Origin: Deltaproteobacteria bacterium
Lineage (GTDB): Bacteria > Myxococcota > Myxococcia > Myxococcales > SZAS-1
Length of the DNA stretch: 64,000 nt
Assembly (NCBI GenBank): GCA_018266075.1
Contig: JAFEBB010000001.1
Span: 124,001 to 188,000, forward strand
Reading direction: 5' to 3'
Shown here: positions 47,517 to 63,301 of the stretch, piece by piece
How positions within the stretch are numbered: position 1 is the first letter of the stretch
How the letters are laid out: each line of letters opens with the position of its first letter
Translations under genes and position numbers: made by a program
Notes under the pieces: model-generated
Database searches by the model: none
What the model was told of the DNA's origin: nothing
Seen by the model: only the letters and a program-made list of their open reading frames with translations

Positions 47517-49091
47517 CTATGAGACCTCGAACACAGCCGAGCGTTCGAGGCCTGCGAGGATCTCCTCGTCCGTCTCAGCCTTCGAGGTCTCGTCCTCGAG
47601 CACTGCGATGGCCCCCGCCGCAGCGAGCTCTTCAGCCGTCACGACCGATGCGGTCCGCAACACGCAACATCCGCGGTCGAAGAGACATCGCTCGACCTCT
47701 TCTGCGCGCGTTGCTGACTCCACCCGCACCACCGCGCCGCCGTGGCCATACCGCTTCTTCCGCTCGGCGCTCGCGACCGGCGCGCGCACGCTGCTTCCTG
47801 CATGGGCCTGACGAATCATTCCGGCCGCGACCGTCTCATTGCTGCGCGCATCCACGAGGATGAACGCGCCCGTTCCCGGCGAGTCGCGATACGCATCCGC
47901 GAAGATCGGCCGCTGGCAAGCGATCCGCACCTGGGCGATGTCGTTCTTCTCCAGCGCGCTCGCAGCCACGAGCTCCAGCGACTCCAAATCCACCCTGCCC
48001 TGCACCTCCGCGATGCGCGCGCGCACGCGGCGCGCGGTGTGCTTGAGCACGAGCTCGCGCGAACCGTCGAGCGGCCCATCGCCCATCCACACCAGCGTGG
48101 CCTCGAGATCCGTCGCAACCGTGGGCGCCGTCGCTGCATGCGCGAGGAGCTCACCACGGCTCAGATCAATCTCTGAATCCAACCGGACCACGACCGACTG
48201 CGGCGCGCTCGCCTCCTGAAGCGTGCCATCGAACGTGTCGATCGCACGGACGCGGGACCGCTGTCCCGAAGGCAGCGCGACCACCTCGTCGCCAATTCTC
48301 AACCGGCCCGACGCGAGCTGCCCCGCGAAGCCGCGGTAGTCGAGGTTTGGGCGCACGACCAGTTGCACCGGAAAGCGCATCGGCCTCGAACTTGCCGAGC
48401 GGCCGATGGCGACCGTCTCGAGGTACTCCATCAAGGTTGGGCCGGAATACCAGGGCGTCTTCACACTTCGTTGAACGACATTGTCGCCCGCCGTCGCCGA
48501 GATCGGGATGGGCGCGACCTCTTGAAACCCGAGCGTCGCGGCGAACTTGGCAAACGTCTCAACAGTCTTATCGAATATCTCGCGTTCAAACCCGACGAGA
48601 TCCATCTTGTTGATGGCGACCACGAGCCGCGGGATCCCCAGCAGCGATGCGATGTACGCATGACGCCGGCTCTGCGTGAGCACGCCAAGCCGCGCATCGA
48701 TCAGGATCACGCCGACATCCGCCGTCGACGCCCCGGTGGCCATGTTGCGCGTGTACTGCTGGTGGCCGGGCGTATCCGCGATGATGTACTTGCGCTTCTT
48801 CGTCGAGAAGTAGCGATGCGCGACGTCAATCGTGATGCCCTGTTCGCGCTCGGCACGAAGCCCGTCGGTGAAGAGCGAATAGTCGATCTCGCCGCCCTGC
48901 TTCGACGCGCGCTTCACCGCGGCGACCTGATCTTCATAGACGCCATTGCCCTCGAAGAGCAGGCGTCCGATGAGCGTCGACTTCCCGTCGTCGACCGAGC
49001 CGACCACGACGCATCGAACCAACTCCTTCTGCTCGTGCTCGGCCAGCTTGGCGATGACCTCCGAGTCCGGATCCGTGATGGCGGCGTGCAT
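47517..49091 (-). CDS. cysN: Sulfate adenylyltransferase subunit 1 (GTPase) with vestigial kinase-like tail
   Basis: 524 residues. With CysD it forms APS from sulfate and ATP, driven by GTP hydrolysis. GTPase motifs are GSVDDGKSTL (G1), DTPGHQQYT (G3), INKMDLVG (G4) and SATAGDN (G5). Two elongation-factor-like beta barrels follow to about 440. The last 85 residues start ERKKRYGHGGAVVRVE and LFDRGCCVLRT, which lines up with the opening and first helix of APS kinase (CysC) but lacks the GLSGSGKST P-loop between them. The ATG overlaps the cysD stop by one base. It is the last gene of the sir operon. Confidence 0.9.
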   Translation of the reverse strand: MHAAITDPDSEVIAKLAEHEQKELVRCVVVGSVDDGKSTLIGRLLFEGNGVYEDQVAAVKRASKQGGEIDYSLFTDGLRAEREQGITIDVAHRYFSTKKRKYIIADTPGHQQYTRNMATGASTADVGVILIDARLGVLTQSRRHAYIASLLGIPRLVVAINKMDLVGFEREIFDKTVETFAKFAATLGFQEVAPIPISATAGDNVVQRSVKTPWYSGPTLMEYLETVAIGRSASSRPMRFPVQLVVRPNLDYRGFAGQLASGRLRIGDEVVALPSGQRSRVRAIDTFDGTLQEASAPQSVVVRLDSEIDLSRGELLAHAATAPTVATDLEATLVWMGDGPLDGSRELVLKHTARRVRARIAEVQGRVDLESLELVAASALEKNDIAQVRIACQRPIFADAYRDSPGTGAFILVDARSNETVAAGMIRQAHAGSSVRAPVASAERKKRYGHGGAVVRVESATRAEEVERCLFDRGCCVLRTASVVTAEELAAAGAIAVLEDETSKAETDEEILAGLERSAVFEVS

Positions 49092-49999
49092 CAGAAGTAC
49101 CCCTCGCGCTTCTTGGTCTCCATCGACGCCTCTTCGTCGTGATCGATCATCCGGCCCTGGCGCTCGGAGACCTGCGAGGCAAGCATCTCGTCGATGATTT
49201 GAGGAACGGTGACCGCGCTCGAGAGCACAGCGCCCGAGAGCGGATAGCAACCCAGCGTGCGGAAGCGAATCCGACGCACCACGGGCTGCTCCCCAGGACG
49301 CAGGCGCATCCGCTCGTCGTCCACCATGATCAGGTTGCCGCCCCGCTCCACCACGGGCCGCTCGGCGGCAAAGTACAAAGGCACAATGGGAATGCGCTCG
49401 AGCCAGAGGTAGTGCCAAACATCGAGCTCGGTCCAATTGGACAATGGAAAGACGCGCAGGCTCTCGCCGGGATCCACGCGCAGGTTGAACAGATTCCAGA
49501 GCTCCGGCCGTTGATTCTTCGGATCCCACTGACCGTGGCGATCGCGGAACGAGAAGATGCGCTCCTTCGCGCGCGACTTCTCCTCGTCACGGCGCGCACC
49601 GCCGAAGGCCACGTCATAGCCGCCCTCGCGAAGCGCCTCGAGGAGCGCCTGGGTCTTCATCGCGTGCGTGTACTTCTGGCTGCTGTCGTCGAAGGGGTTC
49701 ACCCCCTCGGCGAGCGCCTTCCGATTGGTGTGAATCCGCAAGTCGAGCCCGTGCTGCCTCGTGAACGAGTCGCGAAACTCGTACATGGCGCGGAACTTCC
49801 AGGTCGTGTCGATGTGCAACAGCGGAAATGGAACCGGTGCGGGATGAAACGCCTTCCGAATCAGGTGCAGCAGCACCTGCGAGTCCTTGCCGATGCTGTA
49901 CAGAACGATCGGCTTCTCGGCCTCTCCTGCGACCTCGCGGATGATGTGAATGCTCTCGGCCTCGAGCTGCTGAAGGTGAGTGAACCGCGGGGCGCTCAT
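49091..49999 (-). CDS. cysD: Sulfate adenylyltransferase subunit 2
   Basis: 302 residues, the usual length. It is the catalytic subunit of ATP sulfurylase, with the PP-loop [16 protein letters not shown] and the family blocks [41 protein letters not shown] and [16 protein letters not shown] precedes the ATG, which overlaps the cobA stop by four bases (ATGA). Its own stop overlaps the cysN start (TGATG), fixing the 1:1 order cysD-cysN. Confidence 0.95.
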
Positions 50000-50757
50000 G
50001 AGTAGGCCTCCTCGGCAGTCGACGCGACGCCGAGCTGCTCCAACTGCTCGCGCAGCGCCACGACTTCTCCGACCACCAGCAGCGCCGGCGTGCCGACGTC
50101 CGCGGCTTCGGCGAGCAGAGCCACGCTCGCGAGCGTGCCCTGCACGACGCGCTGGTGCGCCCAGGTGCCCGCTTCCACGACGGCTGCCGGCGTCGACGGG
50201 GCGCGTCCCTGCTCGACGAGCTTCCGAGTGGCCTGTCGCAGCTTCTTCCCCGACATGAAGAGCACGAGCGTCGGCGACCGCGCGAGGTGGGCCCAATCTG
50301 GCTCGGCGCCCGAGAGCGACGCCGTCGCGAACGTGACCGCCGCGGAGATCCCGCGGTGCGTGATGGGAATGCCCGCGCTCGCCGGCGCCGCGACACCACT
50401 CGAAACGCCCGGCACAACCTCGAACGGAATGCCGGCGCGCACGAGCTCGAGGGCCTCTTCTCCGCCGCGCCCGAACACGAACGGATCGCCGCCCTTGAGC
50501 CGCACCACGCGTCGACCGAGTCGCGCCTGGGCGATCAGCGTGGCGTTGATCTCCTCTTGCGCGACCTGCTCGCCGCCTCCGGACTTACCCGCAAAGATGA
50601 GCCGCGCGTGCGCGCGTGCGTGGCGAAGGATGTCCGGATGCACCAGGCGGTCGTAGACGACGGTGTCCGCCTCACGGAGAAGCTCGGCCGCGCGCAGCGT
50701 GAGCAGCCCCGGGTCACCCGGGCCAGCGCCGACGAGATACACAATTCCATGGTTCAT
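49996..50757 (-). CDS. cobA: Uroporphyrinogen-III C-methyltransferase
   Basis: 253 residues. It uses SAM to methylate uroporphyrinogen III to precorrin-2, the first step to siroheme. Motifs are [64 protein letters not shown] and the late [15 protein letters not shown] lies before the ATG at 50757, which overlaps the sirC stop by four bases. In this operon it supplies the siroheme used by Sir. Confidence 0.93.
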
Positions 50758-51431
50758 CGTTCCACCTCGCTGAGCCCCGCACTCGCCGAGTCGAGAAGCG
50801 TCGCCAGCCGGCTCCGCCAAATCTGTCGAATCGCGCGCCAGAGCTCGCGCTTGCGCCCCATGGCGATGAGCTCGGCAGCGCCGGCGTCGATCACAGCCTG
50901 GAGCTTGGCCGCGCGATCGGGCCCTCCGGGCGTGAGCTCCCGCAGCCGCCCGAGCAAACGCGCGAGCGTCCCGAACTCTTCGCCGATGGCCACCATCGCT
51001 CGCTTGCGCAGGAAGCGCGCGAGAGCCGGCGCGCGTCCGGAGGTCGAGACGGCGACGGTCACCGGTCCGCGACGGCCGATGGAGGGCATCGTGAAATCGC
51101 AGAGCTCGGGCACGTCGGCAGCGTTGACGAGAATCCTTCGCGCGCGGGCCTCAGCCACGACCGATCGGTTCACCTCGGGTACTTCAGCCGCCGTGAACAC
51201 GAGAAACGCGCCGGCACAGTCGCCACTCCGGTACTCACGTTCGACGAGCTCGATCCGACCCGCGTCAGCGAGCGCGCGGAGCTCGGGCGTGACCTTCGGG
51301 TCAATCACGCGAACCTGAGCGCCCACCTCGAGCAGCTGCGCCAGCCGGCCCTGCGCGATACGCCCACCGCCGACGAGCACCACGCTTCGCTCTTCGAGCT
51401 GCAATGCAATCGGAAAATCGTAGGTACTCAT
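50754..51431 (-). CDS. sirC: Precorrin-2 dehydrogenase / sirohydrochlorin ferrochelatase-like (SirC/CysG N-terminal type)
   Basis: 225 residues. The Rossmann motif VVLVGGGRIAQGRLAQLLEVGA binds NAD, and VNAADVPELCDFTMPSIGRRG is the family core that oxidises precorrin-2 to sirohydrochlorin. The helical C-terminal dimer domain is present. In CysG the same domain also inserts iron; whether this stand-alone form does so is open, and no other chelatase is in the window. Both ends overlap neighbours by four bases. Confidence 0.88.
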   Translation of the reverse strand: MSTYDFPIALQLEERSVVLVGGGRIAQGRLAQLLEVGAQVRVIDPKVTPELRALADAGRIELVEREYRSGDCAGAFLVFTAAEVPEVNRSVVAEARARRILVNAADVPELCDFTMPSIGRRGPVTVAVSTSGRAPALARFLRKRAMVAIGEEFGTLARLLGRLRELTPGGPDRAAKLQAVIDAGAAELIAMGRKRELWRAIRQIWRSRLATLLDSASAGLSEVER

Positions 51432-52300
51432 GAGCTCGCCTCGGCCGGCGCGAGGATCTGTGCCCGGGCGAGCTTGAAGTAGCGCCAGAGGAGCACGCCC
51501 TCGAGCACCACCGTCGCGGCCACGAGCGAATAGCCGAGCACCGCAGCGACGAGGTGCTGGTCGATCAGCACGCGCGCGAGACCAAAGCTGACCAGCAGCG
51601 CGTCCGAGCCCATGCAGGCTCGCCGGAAGGTCTCATTGGGGAGCTTTCGCAGCACGAGGAACCCGAGCGGAATGCCGATGAGCACGCCCGGCGCAGCGAT
51701 GCCCGAGAGCCGAATGCTCTCGCCCGTGAACAACCCAGCTGACCCGTAGAGTCCCGCCGCCAGGATCGACTCCGCAATCCGGAACAGGCTCAATGCCGCG
51801 CGGAAGTTCTCTTTTGTATAGCCCTGATTATTGAGAAGCAGAGCCAATGGCGGCCCGGAGATCGTCGTCGCCGCGTAGAGCGCGCCCACCCCAGCGCCGA
51901 GCGGCACGCCTGCCACGACCTCGCGCTTGAGCGGCCAGCGCACACCGGCCGTCTGCAAGACGATCAGCGGCAGGAGCACCGCGTAGGTCGCAATTCGTAA
52001 GGTCGCATGTCCCGTCTGCGCGAGCGCGAAGGTGCCCAGCACGGCGCCCGGCACCAGGCCACCCAGCATGGGCAACATCCGTCGCCAGATCGCCGGGACC
52101 GCCCGGATGTTCACGAGCAGCGCCACGAAGTTGATGAAAACCTCGACGAGCACCAGCGCGGGGCTCAAGAGCTTGTTGGAGAAGAGCAGCAACGCCAGCG
52201 GCACGGTGATGGCCGAGAACCCGTAGCCGAGGCCGCCATTCACCAGGGCAGCCACGAGGGTAATGAGGGCAAACAGAAGATCGATGTCGGTCAGGTGCAT
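51428..52300 (-). CDS. TauE/SafE-family sulfite/sulfonate permease
   Basis: 290 residues with about eight hydrophobic segments in two halves, each with a Gly-rich signature (ALVNGGLGYGFSAITVP, GVPLGAGVGALYAATTISGPPLALL), as in the DUF81/TauE family. Members move sulfite, sulfoacetate, sulfate or related anions. Its place between cysH and sirC argues for sulfate or sulfite transport across the inner membrane. Direction cannot be told from sequence. It starts 12 bases after cysH. Confidence 0.85.
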   Translation of the reverse strand: MHLTDIDLLFALITLVAALVNGGLGYGFSAITVPLALLLFSNKLLSPALVLVEVFINFVALLVNIRAVPAIWRRMLPMLGGLVPGAVLGTFALAQTGHATLRIATYAVLLPLIVLQTAGVRWPLKREVVAGVPLGAGVGALYAATTISGPPLALLLNNQGYTKENFRAALSLFRIAESILAAGLYGSAGLFTGESIRLSGIAAPGVLIGIPLGFLVLRKLPNETFRRACMGSDALLVSFGLARVLIDQHLVAAVLGYSLVAATVVLEGVLLWRYFKLARAQILAPAEASS

Positions 52301-52312
52301 GTGTTCCTCGGA

Positions 52313-53029
52313 CTAGCGCCTCGCGTGCAGCCCGCACTCCTTGTGCTCGGGCTGCTCCCACCACCAGCGTCCGGCCCTGGCGTCTTCGTACGGCTTCACC
52401 GCGCGAGTACACGGCGCGCAACCAATCGAGGAGAAGCCCACATCGTGGAGCGCGTGGTACGGCACGCGGTTCTGTCGAATGTGGTTCCACACATCGGCTT
52501 CGGTCCACGCGGCGAGCGGATTGAGCTTCCAGATTCCATTCTGCGAATCGTCAATCTCGATGACTTCGACACCCGCGCGCGTCACCGACTGCTCGCGTCG
52601 CAGCCCGGTCACCCACGCCTCACGGCCAGCGAGCGCGCGTTTGAGAGGCTCGACCTTTCGAATGGCGCAGCACGCCTTTCGCTGCTCGAGGCTCTCCCGA
52701 AACGAGTACAGCCCCTGCTCGCTCTCGAGCTTCTCCACGCTGGCGCGCTCGGGCGCGTACACGCGCAGGTTGATTCCATAGCGCTCGCGGATGGCCTGCA
52801 TCACTTCGTACGTCTCGGGATGTAACCTTCCGGTATCAAGCGTAAAGACCTCCAACTTCGGCGTGACGCGCGAAGCGAGATCGATGAGCGCCACGTCCTC
52901 CGCGCCGAAGCTCGAGGCGAGGACTGCCCGAGCCCCAAAGCGCGCCCACGTCCAGGCGAGGATGTCGGGCGCGGATCTTCCTGCCAGCTCGGCGCGCGCA
53001 GCCGAGAGCTCGTCGAGGGCGGCGCTCAC
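52313..53029 (-). CDS. cysH: APS reductase, iron-sulfur type
   Basis: 238 residues from GTG 53029, chosen because it overlaps the sir stop (GTGA) and has GGGGAG at 8 bases; a GTG at 53038 is too close to that site. The enzyme reduces adenylyl sulfate to sulfite with thioredoxin. The PP-loop region SSFGAEDVALIDL, LDTGRLHPETYEVM, and the cluster ligands KACCAIRKVEPL and GCAPCTRAV (CC plus CxxC) mark the [4Fe-4S] APS form rather than PAPS reductases. The C-terminal Cys is in KECGLH. Confidence 0.93.
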   Translation of the reverse strand: MSAALDELSAARAELAGRSAPDILAWTWARFGARAVLASSFGAEDVALIDLASRVTPKLEVFTLDTGRLHPETYEVMQAIRERYGINLRVYAPERASVEKLESEQGLYSFRESLEQRKACCAIRKVEPLKRALAGREAWVTGLRREQSVTRAGVEVIEIDDSQNGIWKLNPLAAWTEADVWNHIRQNRVPYHALHDVGFSSIGCAPCTRAVKPYEDARAGRWWWEQPEHKECGLHARR

Positions 53030-54765
53030 TGGGCGCACTCCCCGTCCATGTCCACGACCTGGAACTCGACGTTGCTTCCGAGGTCGATGAAGTCGTCGGG
53101 CTTGGCGTCGGCCTCTTTGAGCTCGATCAGATCCGCGAGCAGTTGCTTGGCGACGGGAATCTCCAATCGCTGGAAGTACGCGCGCGCGGTCTCTCCAGGC
53201 GTCCGATTCGCGTCGAAGTGTGCAATCAGCCGATCAATGGCTTCAGGCACGCGCCGCGCGGGAACCTTGCCCACGAGCCGTCCGAAGGTGGCGCCGCGCA
53301 CGTCGATGCCGCCGCCAATCATGACGAAGTACTGGGGCACCAACTTCGTCCCCACGTGCCGCGTGCCGCCCTGGAGCCCAATCGCAGAGACATGGTGCTG
53401 CCCGCAGCCGTTGGGACAGCCCGAGACCTTGATGTCGAGGCCTTCTCGTCGCAACGCACCGTGCTTCTCGCGCAACCGGTCGCCCACGAGCTGGGCCACG
53501 CCACGAGAAGCGGTCACCGCGATGCGGCAGGTCTCTGCGCCCGGGCAGCTCACGACATCGGACGTCGAGCCTGCGTGCGGCTCGCCAAGGCCCACGGCGT
53601 CGAGGTCGAGCCAGAGCGCAGGCAGGTCCTGCTCGCGAATCCAGCGGATGAGCAGGTTCTGATCATTCGTGGTGCGCAGCGTCGCGTCGCCGTACTTGGC
53701 AACGATGTCGGCGAGCGCGCGCAGCTGCCGGCTCGAGACATCTCCAAGTCGCAGCCAAACGGCGACTGCACAGTATCCCTCCTGGCGCTGCGGCCGTGCG
53801 TGCGCCCGCTTCCAGTCGGTGAAGCGAGTGGGCATCGGCCGCTCCACGCGCGGAAGCGGCGCCTTGTTGGGCGGCTGCTCGTCGGTCGCTTCAACAGGCA
53901 GCGGCCGCCCGCCCTCCTTTCGAATGAGCTCGAGCTGCTCTTCATAGAGCGCCTGGAACTTCTCCCAGCCCAGGCGCTTGATGGCCCACTTCATCCGCGC
54001 CTTTTGCAAGTTGCCGCGCTCGCCCTCGGCGTTGAAGACACGTGCAATCGCCTCGCACGACGCGAGCAGCTCCTCGGCGGGCAGGAACTCGTGCAGCACG
54101 CCGGCGTTGCGCGGCAGCGTGCTCGTGCCGCCACCGGCGACGATCTTGAACCCGCGAACGCCCTCGCGAACGCGGCCAATGATGCCGATGTCGTTCATGG
54201 CGCCCTGGGCGCAGTCGTCGTCGCAGCCGGAGATCGCAATCTTGAACTTGCGCGGCAAGCCAGAGCCGTAGGGCCGTCGCAGGAAGTGGCGCGTCACCAT
54301 CTCGCCGTAGGGCGTCACGTCGAACGCCGCGCCGCTGCACACGCCCGCGTACGGGCAGCCCGCGACATTGCGCACGGTGTGCGAGCACGCCTCGCGCGTG
54401 GTCAGCCCGCTCCGCGACACCGCTTCCATGAACGCCGGCGCGTGCTCCGTCTTCACGAAGTGAAATTGAAAGTTCTGCCGCGTGGTCACGTGGCCGAACC
54501 CACGCGAGTACTTGTCGGCGCAATCGGCGAGCACCACCAGCTGCTCGGCGCTGAGCACGCCTTGCGGGATCTTCACGCGCACCATCTGCACGCCGTCCTG
54601 GCGCTGGCCGTAGATGCCGCGGCTCAAGCGGTAGTGGCGGTACTGGTCACTGGTCAGCTCGCCGCGCTCGAACTTCTCGAGCATCTCCACGAACTCGGCG
54701 GACTCGGCGGCGTCACCGAAGCTCTCGCGGCTGCGGCTGTCGTTGGCTTCCGGTCTTGCGGTCAT
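53026..54765 (-). CDS. sir: Assimilatory sulfite reductase hemoprotein (ferredoxin/NirA-like)
   Basis: 579 residues of the nitrite/sulfite reductase hemoprotein family. It reduces sulfite to sulfide with six electrons. The two ferredoxin-like halves each have their core (VTTRQNFQFHFV; TTNDQNLLIRWI). The [4Fe-4S]-siroheme ligands are SCPGAETCRIAV and SGCPNGCGQHH. Its context with cysH and siroheme genes supports sulfite over nitrite. The ATG at 54765 has GGAGG upstream. Transcription must pass the attenuator at 54781-54823. Confidence 0.92.
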   Translation of the reverse strand: MTARPEANDSRSRESFGDAAESAEFVEMLEKFERGELTSDQYRHYRLSRGIYGQRQDGVQMVRVKIPQGVLSAEQLVVLADCADKYSRGFGHVTTRQNFQFHFVKTEHAPAFMEAVSRSGLTTREACSHTVRNVAGCPYAGVCSGAAFDVTPYGEMVTRHFLRRPYGSGLPRKFKIAISGCDDDCAQGAMNDIGIIGRVREGVRGFKIVAGGGTSTLPRNAGVLHEFLPAEELLASCEAIARVFNAEGERGNLQKARMKWAIKRLGWEKFQALYEEQLELIRKEGGRPLPVEATDEQPPNKAPLPRVERPMPTRFTDWKRAHARPQRQEGYCAVAVWLRLGDVSSRQLRALADIVAKYGDATLRTTNDQNLLIRWIREQDLPALWLDLDAVGLGEPHAGSTSDVVSCPGAETCRIAVTASRGVAQLVGDRLREKHGALRREGLDIKVSGCPNGCGQHHVSAIGLQGGTRHVGTKLVPQYFVMIGGGIDVRGATFGRLVGKVPARRVPEAIDRLIAHFDANRTPGETARAYFQRLEIPVAKQLLADLIELKEADAKPDDFIDLGSNVEFQVVDMDGECAQ

Positions 54766-54780
54766 GCGGGCCTCCAGGGA

Positions 54781-54823
54781 CAAAAAACAAGAAGGCCCGC
54801 CTCCTTTTCGGGGGCGGGCCTTC
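54781..54823 (-). terminator. Attenuator hairpin of the sir operon leader
   Basis: On the minus strand GAAGGCCCGCC (54823-54813) and GGCGGGCCTTC (54801-54791) form a perfect 11-bp stem with an 11-base loop, followed by TTGTTTTTTG (54790-54781). It lies between the Cys leader ORF and the sir ATG, so it can stop transcription before the operon. The 5' arm can alternatively pair with GGCGGG at 54879-54874 inside the leader ORF. Confidence 0.85.
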
Positions 54824-54848
54824 GGGCACCTTCGAGTGGATTCGCTTT

Positions 54849-54953
54849 TTAGGCGAAGTCTCCCGGTGCTCGTCCCGCCGGACGGCAGCAGCAACACGCA
54901 CAGCAGCAGCAGGCCGCGGTGTGGTCGAAGCTGGTAGCGGAGACGGTTCGCAT
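54849..54953 (-). CDS. Cysteine-run leader peptide of the sir operon
   Basis: 34 codons plus TAA. The peptide begins MRTVSATSFDHTAA, has CCCCACCCC at residues 15-23 and ends RPAGRAPGDFA. Eight Cys codons in nine are TGC or TGT. There is no Shine-Dalgarno, and the ATG is only about 5 bases after the predicted transcription start, so it may be translated as a near-leaderless ORF. The product is unlikely to act as a protein. Stalling at Cys codons when charged tRNA-Cys is low would change folding of the RNA downstream. A second copy of the design lies at 63156-63260. Confidence 0.88.
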   Translation of the reverse strand: MRTVSATSFDHTAACCCCACCCCRPAGRAPGDFA

Positions 54954-54964
54954 CAGGAGCCCAA

Positions 54965-54994
54965 GGAATACGCAGCTCGCACGCGCTGCGTCAA
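54965..54994 (-). promoter_or_regulatory. Sigma-70-type promoter of the sir operon
   Basis: TTGACG (54994-54989), 18-base spacer, TATTCC (54970-54965), then 11 bases to the leader ATG. The same spacings occur at the second leader. Confidence 0.7.
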
Positions 54995-55045
54995 GCGATG
55001 GTCGGTCGATTCTTGAATTACACAGTGTCCACGGCGGGTTTGTGG

Positions 55046-56395
55046 CTATCCCACCTTCATCGGCCGGCCCAGCTCTTCCCAGTCGTTCATCCCGCCGCGC
55101 ACGGCCTTCACCTTCTCGTAGCCTTGCGCCTTGAGGAGCAGCAGCGCCGTGAGCGAGCGCTTTCCGGACGCGCAGATGGTGACGAGCGGCTGGTCGTGCC
55201 GCGCCGGAAGGCCTGGCGCCCCGGCTTTGGAGAGCGTCCCCACGGGCACGTTCACCGCCTCGGCGATGTGGCCCTCCGCGAACTCGCGCGGCGAGCGCAC
55301 GTCGATGAGCGCGGCTCCGCCCTTTACCAGATCCGCAATCGCGTCGAGCTCCACCATGTCCGCCGACTCGCGCGCGAGATCCTGGATCGCCGAGAGGATC
55401 TCCGGCGTCGGTCCCGACGACGATGCGGGCTTCGGCGCGTCATCCGCCGACCCCACGAAGAGCTGGGGCAGGTGCTTCTTGAACGAGCCGCTGTACTTGA
55501 AGGCATTGTCCGGGAACATCACCACGCAGATGTTGCCCGGCTCATCGGGCACCAGCTTCAGCGCGCCCGCGAGCGCCATGCCCGAGCTCGGCCCGGCGAT
55601 GATGCTCTCTTCCTGATTCAGGCGCCGCGCCATTTCATAGGCTGTCGCGTTATCGATTTCGACGAGCCCGTCATACTCTTTAGGCAAGAAGAAGTCGGTC
55701 AACTTGAGCGCGCGCAGCGTGCGCACGCCGGGGATGTCGTGCCCCTCGGCAGGGTGCACGCCGAAGACCTTCACGTCCTTGCGCTGCGTGCGCAGGAAGC
55801 GCCCCGTGCCGGTGATGGTGCCGCAGGTGCCAAGCCCGGCCACGAAGTGGGTGATCTTGCCCTCGGTCTGCTTCCACACCTCCGGACCCGTGGTGCGGAA
55901 GTGCGCGTCCGGATTTGCCGGATTCTTATATTGATTGAGCTCGTGCCAGCCAGGCTGCTTCGACATCTCCTCGGCCTTCGACATCGCGCCTTCGGGCTGT
56001 CCCGGCATCGGGCACAGGTCGTCCGAGAGCTCCACCAGCTTCGCGCCGAACATGCGCAGGCTGGCGCGCTTCTCCGCGGGGATTGCGGTCGAGAGCGTGG
56101 CCGTGAACTCGATGCCCTTGGCGTTCGAGATCATCGAGAGCCCGATGCCGGTGTTTCCCGAGGTCGGCTCCACGAGGTGCTGGAGCTTGATGCCCTGCTC
56201 TTCCGCGTCGCGGATGAGGTTGGCGGCCACGCGATCCTTCACGGCGCCGAAGGGGTTGTACCACTCGAGCTTGGCGTAGACCTTCGTGTGCTTGAACGGC
56301 ACCACGCGGTTGAGCCGCACGATGGGCGTGGGGTTGTCGGCGTTCGACAGCATGTCGAGCATCGAGTCGTAGACGCGCTTGGAAAAGTCAGTCAT
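55046..56395 (-). CDS. Cysteine synthase/cystathionine beta-synthase fused to rhodanese
   Basis: 449 residues. Residues 1-325 are a fold-type II PLP enzyme: WYNPFGAVKDRVAAN (Schiff-base Lys), EPTSGNTGIGLSM (substrate loop), GLGTCGTITGTGRFL (phosphate cradle) and GPSSGMALAGA. Residues about 350-449 are a rhodanese domain with LIDVRSPREFAEGHI and the active loop ICASGKRS (Cys nucleophile). The PLP part would join sulfide with O-acetyl- or O-phosphoserine. The rhodanese could deliver or remove sulfane sulfur. AGGAG precedes the ATG. Confidence 0.87.
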   Translation of the reverse strand: MTDFSKRVYDSMLDMLSNADNPTPIVRLNRVVPFKHTKVYAKLEWYNPFGAVKDRVAANLIRDAEEQGIKLQHLVEPTSGNTGIGLSMISNAKGIEFTATLSTAIPAEKRASLRMFGAKLVELSDDLCPMPGQPEGAMSKAEEMSKQPGWHELNQYKNPANPDAHFRTTGPEVWKQTEGKITHFVAGLGTCGTITGTGRFLRTQRKDVKVFGVHPAEGHDIPGVRTLRALKLTDFFLPKEYDGLVEIDNATAYEMARRLNQEESIIAGPSSGMALAGALKLVPDEPGNICVVMFPDNAFKYSGSFKKHLPQLFVGSADDAPKPASSSGPTPEILSAIQDLARESADMVELDAIADLVKGGAALIDVRSPREFAEGHIAEAVNVPVGTLSKAGAPGLPARHDQPLVTICASGKRSLTALLLLKAQGYEKVKAVRGGMNDWEELGRPMKVG

Positions 56396-62168: not shown

Positions 62169-62636
62169 TCAGCCGCACGTCTCGGGCTTGACCTCGGACG
62201 TCACCTCGAATGCCGGCTGCGACTCCGGCACGACGCGCTCGAAGAGGGAGTGCGCAACCATCCCCACGGCCATCGCGGCCACGAAGAGCAGCGCCGCAGG
62301 GCAGCCCGCACCGAAGGCGACGATCCCCGGGCCCGGGCAGAAGCCGCCCAGTCCCCAGCCGATGCCGAAGATCGCCGCGCCTGTCACGAGCCGCGTGTCG
62401 ATGCCACGCGCAGCCGGCTCGGCGAATGAGGCGGCGAGCAGCGGTCGCTTGGGCGCGAGCAGACGCATCACCGCCAGCACCGCCAGCCCGGAGCCCATCA
62501 CCAGCGCCAGGCTCGGGTCCCAGCTGCCGGTGACGTCGAGGAAGGCGAGGATGTTGGCGGGCAGGGTCATGCCCGAGACCGCGAGCCCCACGGCGAAAAG
62601 GAGCCCACTCGCAAACGCCACGATCAGGTTCTTCAC
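62169..62636 (-). CDS. YeeE/YedE-type sulfur transporter, second half (DUF6691-like)
   Basis: 155 residues. The GTG start overlaps the stop of the first half (GTGA). It has four or so membrane segments (LIVAFASGLLFAVGLAVSGM, GAAIFGIGWGLGGFCPGPGI, AALLFVAAMAVGMVAHSLF) and Cys in GGFCPGPG and GAGCPAALL, as in the second repeat of YeeE proteins. The polar tail holds a final Cys. With the upstream subunit it should form one pore for a sulfur species such as thiosulfate. Confidence 0.85.
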   Translation of the reverse strand: MKNLIVAFASGLLFAVGLAVSGMTLPANILAFLDVTGSWDPSLALVMGSGLAVLAVMRLLAPKRPLLAASFAEPAARGIDTRLVTGAAIFGIGWGLGGFCPGPGIVAFGAGCPAALLFVAAMAVGMVAHSLFERVVPESQPAFEVTSEVKPETCG

Positions 62637-63076
62637 GCGGCACCTCCCAGCGCGTGCCGCAGCACGAAGACGGCCACCATCCCCAGCGCCATGAACACCA
62701 GCGTGGCCACGATGGAGCGCCCCGAGAGCCGACTGATGCCACAGAGCCCGTGGCCGCTGGTGCAGCCGCTGCCGAGCCGCGTCCCGAAGCCGACGAGCAA
62801 TCCCGAGGCGATGAGCAGCGCGCTCGAGTGCGGCACGTCCCAAGTGAAGAAGCGCGGCGCGAGCCGGCTCAGCACCAGACCGCCGAGCGCGAGCCCGCCG
62901 AGGAAGGCGCTGCGCCAGGGCAGGTCCGGGCGATCGAGCTCCAGCACGCCGCCGAAGATCCCGCTGATGCCCGCGGCGCGACCGTTGAGCACCCACAGGC
63001 CCGCGACCGCCAGGCCGGTGAGCACGCCTCCCACGGCCGCCGGGACCAGGTGAGATGTAACCGTTGGGTTGAGCAT
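62633..63076 (-). CDS. YeeE/YedE-type sulfur transporter, first half
   Basis: 147 residues from ATG 63076 (AGGAG at 8 bases). It has membrane segments AAVGGVLTGLAVAGLWVLNG, FLGGLALGGLVLSRL, SSALLIASGLLVGFG and IVATLVFMALGMVAVFVL. The family signature is GTRLGSGCTSGHGLCGISRLS, with the Cys used in YeeE/TsuA to pass thiosulfate. Single-chain YeeE proteins are about twice this length; here two genes encode the halves. It is expressed after a Cys leader peptide. Confidence 0.88.
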   Translation of the reverse strand: MLNPTVTSHLVPAAVGGVLTGLAVAGLWVLNGRAAGISGIFGGVLELDRPDLPWRSAFLGGLALGGLVLSRLAPRFFTWDVPHSSALLIASGLLVGFGTRLGSGCTSGHGLCGISRLSGRSIVATLVFMALGMVAVFVLRHALGGAA

Positions 63077-63089
63077 CGATTCGACTCCT

Positions 63090-63128
63090 GAAACGCAGAA
63101 GGCCCGCCTCCTCGTGGGTGGCGGGCCT
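63090..63128 (-). terminator. Attenuator hairpin of the YeeE operon leader
   Basis: On the minus strand AGGCCCGCC (63128-63120) and GGCGGGCCT (63108-63100) pair over 9 bp with an 11-base loop, followed by TCTGCGTTTC. The stem and the AGGAGGCGGGCCTTCT string match the sir attenuator, but the U-tract is weaker. Confidence 0.72.
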
Positions 63129-63155: not shown

Positions 63156-63260
63156 TTACGCGAAAGGTCCCGATGCCCGGCCCGCCGGCCAGCAACAGAG
63201 ACACGCACAGCAGCGACAAGCCGCGGTGGAGCCCTTGCTGGTGGCGGAAACGGGAGTCAT
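63156..63260 (-). CDS. Cysteine-rich leader peptide of the YeeE operon
   Basis: 34 codons plus TAA. It begins MTPVSATSKGSTAA, has CRCCACLCC at residues 15-23 and ends WPAGRASGPFA. It aligns without gaps to the sir leader: VSATS, TAAC, CAC, CC, PAGRA, G and FA are shared. Six of nine central codons are Cys. There is no Shine-Dalgarno, and the ATG is 11 bases from the -10. The same reading as for the sir leader applies, namely a sensor of cysteine supply. Confidence 0.87.
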   Translation of the reverse strand: MTPVSATSKGSTAACRCCACLCCWPAGRASGPFA

Positions 63261-63271
63261 CGGTTGCTCAA

Positions 63272-63301
63272 AGGCTAGGTGGCGCGTCGGCCTGGCGTCA
63301 A
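63272..63301 (-). promoter_or_regulatory. Sigma-70-type promoter of the YeeE operon
   Basis: TTGACG (63301-63296), 18-base spacer, TAGCCT (63277-63272), then 11 bases to the leader ATG. This is the same geometry as the sir promoter. Confidence 0.68.

Follow-up and report, generated by a model that had tools for sequence, protein, structure and literature searches.

Candidate cysteine-sensing attenuators ahead of sulfur-assimilation operons in Myxococcales

How might a myxobacterium match the transcription of its sulfur-assimilation genes to its supply of cysteine? In the 64-kb window (the whole stretch of DNA that we analysed), two short ORFs dense in cysteine codons, each followed by a terminator hairpin, stand ahead of sulfur genes, one before the sir operon (unit A) and one before yeeE (unit B). 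Comparison with related genomes makes it highly likely that such a unit works by ribosome-mediated transcription attenuation and responds to charged tRNA-Cys, and a cysteine gauge of this kind, repeated at several myxobacterial sulfur operons, is very probably real.

Results

Unit A lies on the minus strand and is made up of the following features.

54965-54994, minus: predicted promoter of leader A, read from the sequence, TTGACG (54994-54989), 18 nt, TATTCC (54970-54965)
54849-54953, minus: leader ORF A, 34 codons, MRTVSATSFDHTAACCCCACCCCRPAGRAPGDFA, ATG at 54953 and TAA at 54851-54849
54885-54911, minus: cysteine-codon run of leader A, the proposed stall site, 8 Cys in 9 codons (residues 15-18 and 20-23)
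54871-54884, minus: possible protector hairpin 1:2, CGTCC-GGCG-GGACG, which would hide segment 2 and recurs in most units
54813-54879, minus: antiterminator A, its apical stem enclosing the stop codon, GGCGGG (54879-54874) with CCCGCC (54818-54813) and GCACC (54869-54865) with GGTGC (54830-54826); from folding, the swap test and fitted alignments
54783-54823, minus: intrinsic terminator A with U-rich tail, arms 54823-54810 and 54804-54791

The minus-strand sequence 54953-54849 bears out the 34-codon ORF with eight Cys codons in nine that the preliminary description reported, and its 11-bp GC-rich hairpin with a U-tract is likewise present: the terminator arms are 14 nt long and 93% complementary, with 11 perfect base pairs at the base, and are followed by TTGTTTTTTG. 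The promoter that it placed at the sir leader, whose -10 box ends 11 nt 5' of the ATG, drew no call in a strict consensus scan, yet other leaders show the same layout. None of the Rfam families searched over 54500-55300 (T-box, SAM riboswitches and others) reached its gathering score, and there were weak chance matches only. Upstream of leader A on the same strand lies a cysteine synthase with a rhodanese-like domain fused at its C-terminus (55046-56395, minus); no terminator was noticed between this gene and the leader, so that readthrough could also meet the attenuator.

Behind unit A the operon runs as follows.

53026-54765, minus: sir (nitrite/sulfite reductase), the first gene, NIR_SIR domains above Pfam cut-offs
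52313-53038, minus: cysH (PAPS/APS reductase), passes a curated cut-off
51428-52300, minus: TauE-type sulfite exporter family protein, PF01925 above the Pfam cut-off
50754-51431, minus: siroheme synthase N-terminal domain (sirC-like), passes a curated cut-off
49996-50760, minus: cobA (uroporphyrinogen-III C-methyltransferase), passes a curated cut-off
49091-49999, minus: cysD, passes a curated cut-off
47517-49094, minus: cysN, passes a subfamily cut-off

Domain searches agree with the identities proposed earlier for sir-cysH-tauE-sirC-cobA-cysD-cysN, and the sir/cysH, tauE/sirC, cobA/cysD and cysD/cysN pairs overlap as described. The name sir is given by domains and context, because the reductase scores under every NCBIfam equivalog cut-off.

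Searching the DNA of the window's own genome returned one further match, with 77% identity over 157 nt. It is unit B, which sits in the same 64-kb window and had been missed in the preliminary description.

63272-63301, minus: predicted promoter of leader B, from promoter comparison, TTGACG, 18 nt, TAGCCT
63156-63260, minus: leader ORF B, paralogue of A, 34 codons, MTPVSATSKGSTAACRCCACLCCWPAGRASGPFA, found by DNA search and the detector described below; 6 Cys in 9 codons
63120-63186, minus: antiterminator B from folding, GGCGGG (63186-63181) with CCCGCC (63125-63120) and inner stems
63088-63128, minus: terminator hairpin B, arms 63128-63117 and 63111-63100, with a weak U-tract (TTCTGCGTTTC)
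62633-63076, minus: half of a YeeE-type sulfur transporter (PF04143), followed by a DUF6691 gene

No Cys leader precedes the yeeE orthologues of other Myxococcota, which suggests a lineage-specific placement of copy B.

Could such units arise by chance? A strict detector, which requires an ATG ORF 20-60 aa long, a stretch of 9 residues with 4 Cys or more, and then a terminator, found exactly two units in the window, both before sulfur genes, and none in the reversed window. It found none in 98 kb of relatives' yeeE loci and one in 168 kb of control loci, against 26 units in 15 of 30 myxobacterial cysH loci. A scan of the 195 genomes for a six-Cys codon pattern was dropped, being too noisy from TGC repeats.

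For the wider distribution, cysH, sir and yeeE were searched for in 195 Myxococcota genomes and their upstream regions scanned for a short Cys-rich ORF with a terminator. Units like these turn up in four families of the order: the window's own (f1), f3, f7 and f8. Myxococcus, a genus (g24) that we recognised by its members M. xanthus AM003 and M. vastator AM301, has units before cysH; in f7, f8 and other genera of f3 a unit precedes cysH or sir, or is found some kb away on the upstream side of cysH. All 27 Myxococcus genomes scanned with covariance models R1 or R2, M. xanthus included, have a gene-proximal unit at cysH, and at least 16 of the 27 have a second, promoter-proximal one (R2, E ≤ 1e-3); both AM003 and AM301 have the tandem cysH units. 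The relatives' leaders hold 4 to 13 Cys, about thirteen codons nearly in a row in one of them (G150), and otherwise share little as peptides. Conservation of the leader had been put forward in the preliminary description as a check, through an exact peptide pattern: leaders with a conserved antiterminator do precede sulfur genes in four families, but the pattern itself is not conserved, and what the units have in common is confined to the Cys codons and RNA segments.

Some relatives differ. No unit was detected in the f5 and f9 genomes. In genus g30 (L188, L154, L156) a GC hairpin with a T-run is kept ahead of cysH and there is no Cys leader ORF, so that the hairpin may be a decayed or differently controlled attenuator. 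In genus g11 (L066, about 1180-1465, upstream of cysH) the Cys leader is gone, the hairpin is kept and ATCCGCTATAGCGGA-like palindromes flank the promoter; replacement of attenuation by a repressor is possible there. Because g30 and g11 are without the Cys leader, and f5 and f9 without a detected unit, the attenuator is not essential to the pathway.

Covariance model R1 was trained on sir, cysH and yeeE leaders only and run on the 195 genomes, and neither R1 nor the retrained R2 was ever given the gene that follows a site. In Myxococcus, strong new R1 matches fell ahead of two cysK genes, with Cys-rich leaders MSLPLPTTGAQCCCCCRVACACCCLAGPEHWESA and MLVFVARFGTCCRGACCRVPTGPSVRAY and a terminator each, and R2 further picked out leaders that precede metN-type transporters (MLVRAATFRTCCHGMCCRVAAGPSVRMR). 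The R2 matches inspected below about 1e-6 all carry a Cys-rich leader and all lie ahead of a sulfur gene. Across the leader units found, the downstream genes (sir, cysH, cysD, cysN, cysK, metN and yeeE) belong to sulfur and cysteine pathways. Units A and B are the sole matches of both models in the window's own genome, with scores that are not independent evidence because both copies were in the training set. Weak matches (L236, L238, L239, L240, L330 and L334) proved on inspection to be plain terminators or chance. The metN-type ABC transporter genes that directly follow Cys leaders at L323-L333 encode a NIL domain, which suggests that a transporter of this type is regulated by cysteine. About 54 nt before one cysK1 leader (L227), a perfect palindrome, TCCGTTATAACGGA, overlaps the -35 region and suggests a protein regulator in that one genome.

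Promoters were compared at 20 promoter-proximal leaders. For 18 of them the best candidate consists of TTGAC(A/G/T), a spacer of 17-18 nt and a -10 box that stops 3-12 nt, in most cases 8-12 nt, 5' of the ATG. A sigma-70 promoter so placed would leave a 5' UTR of a few nt, and it is from this spacing that we predict the leaders to be near-leaderless. The second units of tandem pairs have no such promoters.

To what extent are the two folds mutually exclusive? Twenty-two representative units (A, B and 20 others) were each cut off before the 3' arm of the terminator and folded. All 22 adopt a like antiterminator, in which GGCGGG or a variant pairs with the terminator 5' arm around a middle stem, and in all 22 the stop codon of the leader lies in the apical loop. 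For this unit type, z of the antiterminator fold is about -2 to -4.8. Removal of the 5' half lets the terminator form. In an alignment-free swap test, antiterminator 5' and 3' halves were exchanged between units: native pairs gave -21.7 versus -13.9 kcal/mol for swapped pairs in seven divergent units (p=1.5e-4) and -20.3 versus -15.3 kcal/mol in 15 units (p=5e-5). One structure-fitted alignment holds 37 two-sided changes versus 14.5 ± 3.5 in shuffles (0/500), and another 23 versus 8.7 ± 2.4; in the structure-fitted alignment the changes exceed slid registers as well as shuffles. The GACGGG of the cysK2 leaders, for example, is matched by CCCGUC in the cysK2 terminators. A sequence-only alignment of the units gave no column covariation and fitted alignments lean towards structure, and for these reasons we give the swap test more weight. 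It supports selection on the antiterminator pairing. By folding and covariation the antiterminator excludes the terminator, and a ribosome at the stop codon would presumably block the antiterminator in turn. A hairpin also directly follows the Cys run in most units; its own swap test gave no covariation support (p=0.49), and because its arms are interchangeable between units its role as a protector is a possibility only.

Outside Myxococcota, an Acidobacteria MAG (AS06rmzACSIP_132, L252:3407-3297, minus) has a Cys-rich leader, MHSVIHGNFCCCCRCGAACCCTLLRMAACGRTAFRR, and a terminator ahead of a sulfite-reductase-type gene. Its antiterminator layout is similar to that of the Myxococcales units and its sequence unrelated, and the leader is apparently of separate origin; the sir search in Acidobacteriota gave one further homologue, without a leader. 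In Thermoflexibacter ruber (L302:5592-5770), a frame ending in NICCCCCC and a stop codon is followed, after about 220 nt, by cysH-cysD-cysN. No terminator was seen, and the frame resembles the mycobacterial type of Cys leader.

Discussion

How would such a unit work? Transcription would begin a few nucleotides 5' of the leader start codon, with immediate loading of a ribosome. With ample cysteine, the ribosome would translate straight through the Cys run, reach the stop codon and mask the antiterminator 5' half; the terminator hairpin would then form, and transcription would end before sir in unit A or yeeE in unit B. With cysteine short, the ribosome would stall in the Cys run, GGCGGG...GCACC would pair with the terminator 5' side, GGTGC...CCCGCC, and the antiterminator would block the terminator so that the operon is transcribed. 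When no ribosome is present, the small hairpin after the Cys run may mask the antiterminator segment. The ORFs, Cys runs, terminators and exclusive folds with compensatory changes recur among the genomes as laid out above; for the transcription start, translation, stalling and cysteine response of the units we reason from them. That cysteine shortage stalls ribosomes and lets transcription pass was already the reading of the preliminary description, and the comparative evidence (recurrence and the conserved antiterminator) supports it, with the stalling itself as the inferred step. To that reading we add three features absent from the preliminary description besides the second copy: the competing antiterminator, the predicted near-leaderless starts and the tandem units frequent in Myxococcus.

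Would a stalled ribosome instead free the ribosome-binding site of the first gene, the hairpin being no terminator in vivo? Translational attenuation is a known mechanism for mycobacterial polycysteine leaders (Canestrari 2020, as cited in PMC13236596 and PMC9094748), the predicted near-leaderless starts look similar and the U-tract of copy B is weak. We nevertheless think it unlikely here, since most units have GC-rich hairpins with T-runs directly after them, the terminator 5' arm is the target of the conserved competing pairing, and the sir start region (CTGGAGGCCCGC ATG) comes after the U-tract, outside the hairpin. Less likely again is a functional Cys-rich peptide, metal- or redox-binding or trans-acting, whose translation or folding is the signal: the Cys content is high and trans-acting leader peptides exist, such as peTrpL of S. 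meliloti (PMC7298713), but only the Cys codons are common to the leaders, the residues on either side, the leader length and the number of Cys (4 to 13) differ greatly, the conserved residues after the Cys run coincide with antiterminator RNA, and every downstream gene supplies sulfur or cysteine.

The hairpin as a plain terminator of the upstream gene, next to a chance Cys-rich frame, is hardly credible. A GGCCCGCC-type hairpin is indeed an ordinary terminator elsewhere (L236, L238, L330), but this explanation has against it two independent window copies, recurrence across families, the promoter spacing, covariation and the strong contrast with control loci, and since units recur at sulfur loci, both orthologous and new, it is already largely refuted. 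Ribosome-mediated transcription attenuation thus stays our preferred reading.

Attenuators of this class are known. The uORFC-8-2 motif, predicted before cysS in Rhodobacterales, has a two-Cys leader, its tandem Cys codons at about positions 14-15 in the first stem, and an intrinsic terminator (PMC8632094). It resembles the Myxococcota units in its Cys-codon leader ORF, intrinsic terminator and proposed readthrough on tRNA-Cys shortage, and differs in having two Cys codons only, at cysS only, in one alphaproteobacterial order, without the tandem units or sulfur regulon that are features of the Myxococcota units. The myxobacterial loci found, with long Cys runs and no cysS among them, fall outside uORFC-8-2. 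In Actinobacteria, Cys-run leaders without conserved terminators have been predicted (PMC1262725). Mycobacterial polycysteine leaders are reported as cysteine-responsive attenuators (Canestrari 2020, cited in PMC13236596 and PMC9094748), with the M. smegmatis case described there as translational attenuation (PMC13236596); they too are Cys-run leaders at cysteine and sulfur operons with a (near-)leaderless start, here predicted, but they have translational control and no intrinsic terminator, whereas the Myxococcota units keep the terminator/antiterminator pair. The enteric trp, his, leu and ilv attenuators share regulatory codons, an exclusive terminator and antiterminator, a possible protector hairpin and an operon of the same pathway; unlike them, the Myxococcota units would sense Cys, are predicted to initiate near-leaderless, and occur in tandem.

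A literature search, with subscription papers mostly outside its reach, returned no report of a sulfur-wide, tandem, near-leaderless Cys attenuator in Myxococcota. The suggestion that such a system was little or not described has to be narrowed, as both the cysS attenuator (PMC8632094) and the terminator-less leaders of Actinobacteria (PMC1262725) had already been predicted. What appears to be new in Myxococcota is the sulfur-wide use, the predicted near-leaderless leaders and the tandem units. On a broader proposal we are evenly divided: that Myxococcales have a distributed cysteine regulon (sir/cysH, cysK, metNI, yeeE) run by cis-acting near-leaderless Cys-leader attenuators, with a serial pair at cysH in many Myxococcus species and a dedicated cysteine regulator unneeded at most of these promoters, and that the same architecture arose separately ahead of sir in the Acidobacteriota MAG.

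Control of sulfur assimilation in Myxococcota is little described, as far as the literature search reached, and the units would give it a specific RNA-level answer with named target operons and a tractable model, M. xanthus. They would tie near-leaderless initiation to a close coupling between translation and termination, the tandem units raise the question of serial attenuation, and the metN leader hints at a role for that transporter in the supply of cysteine or cystine.
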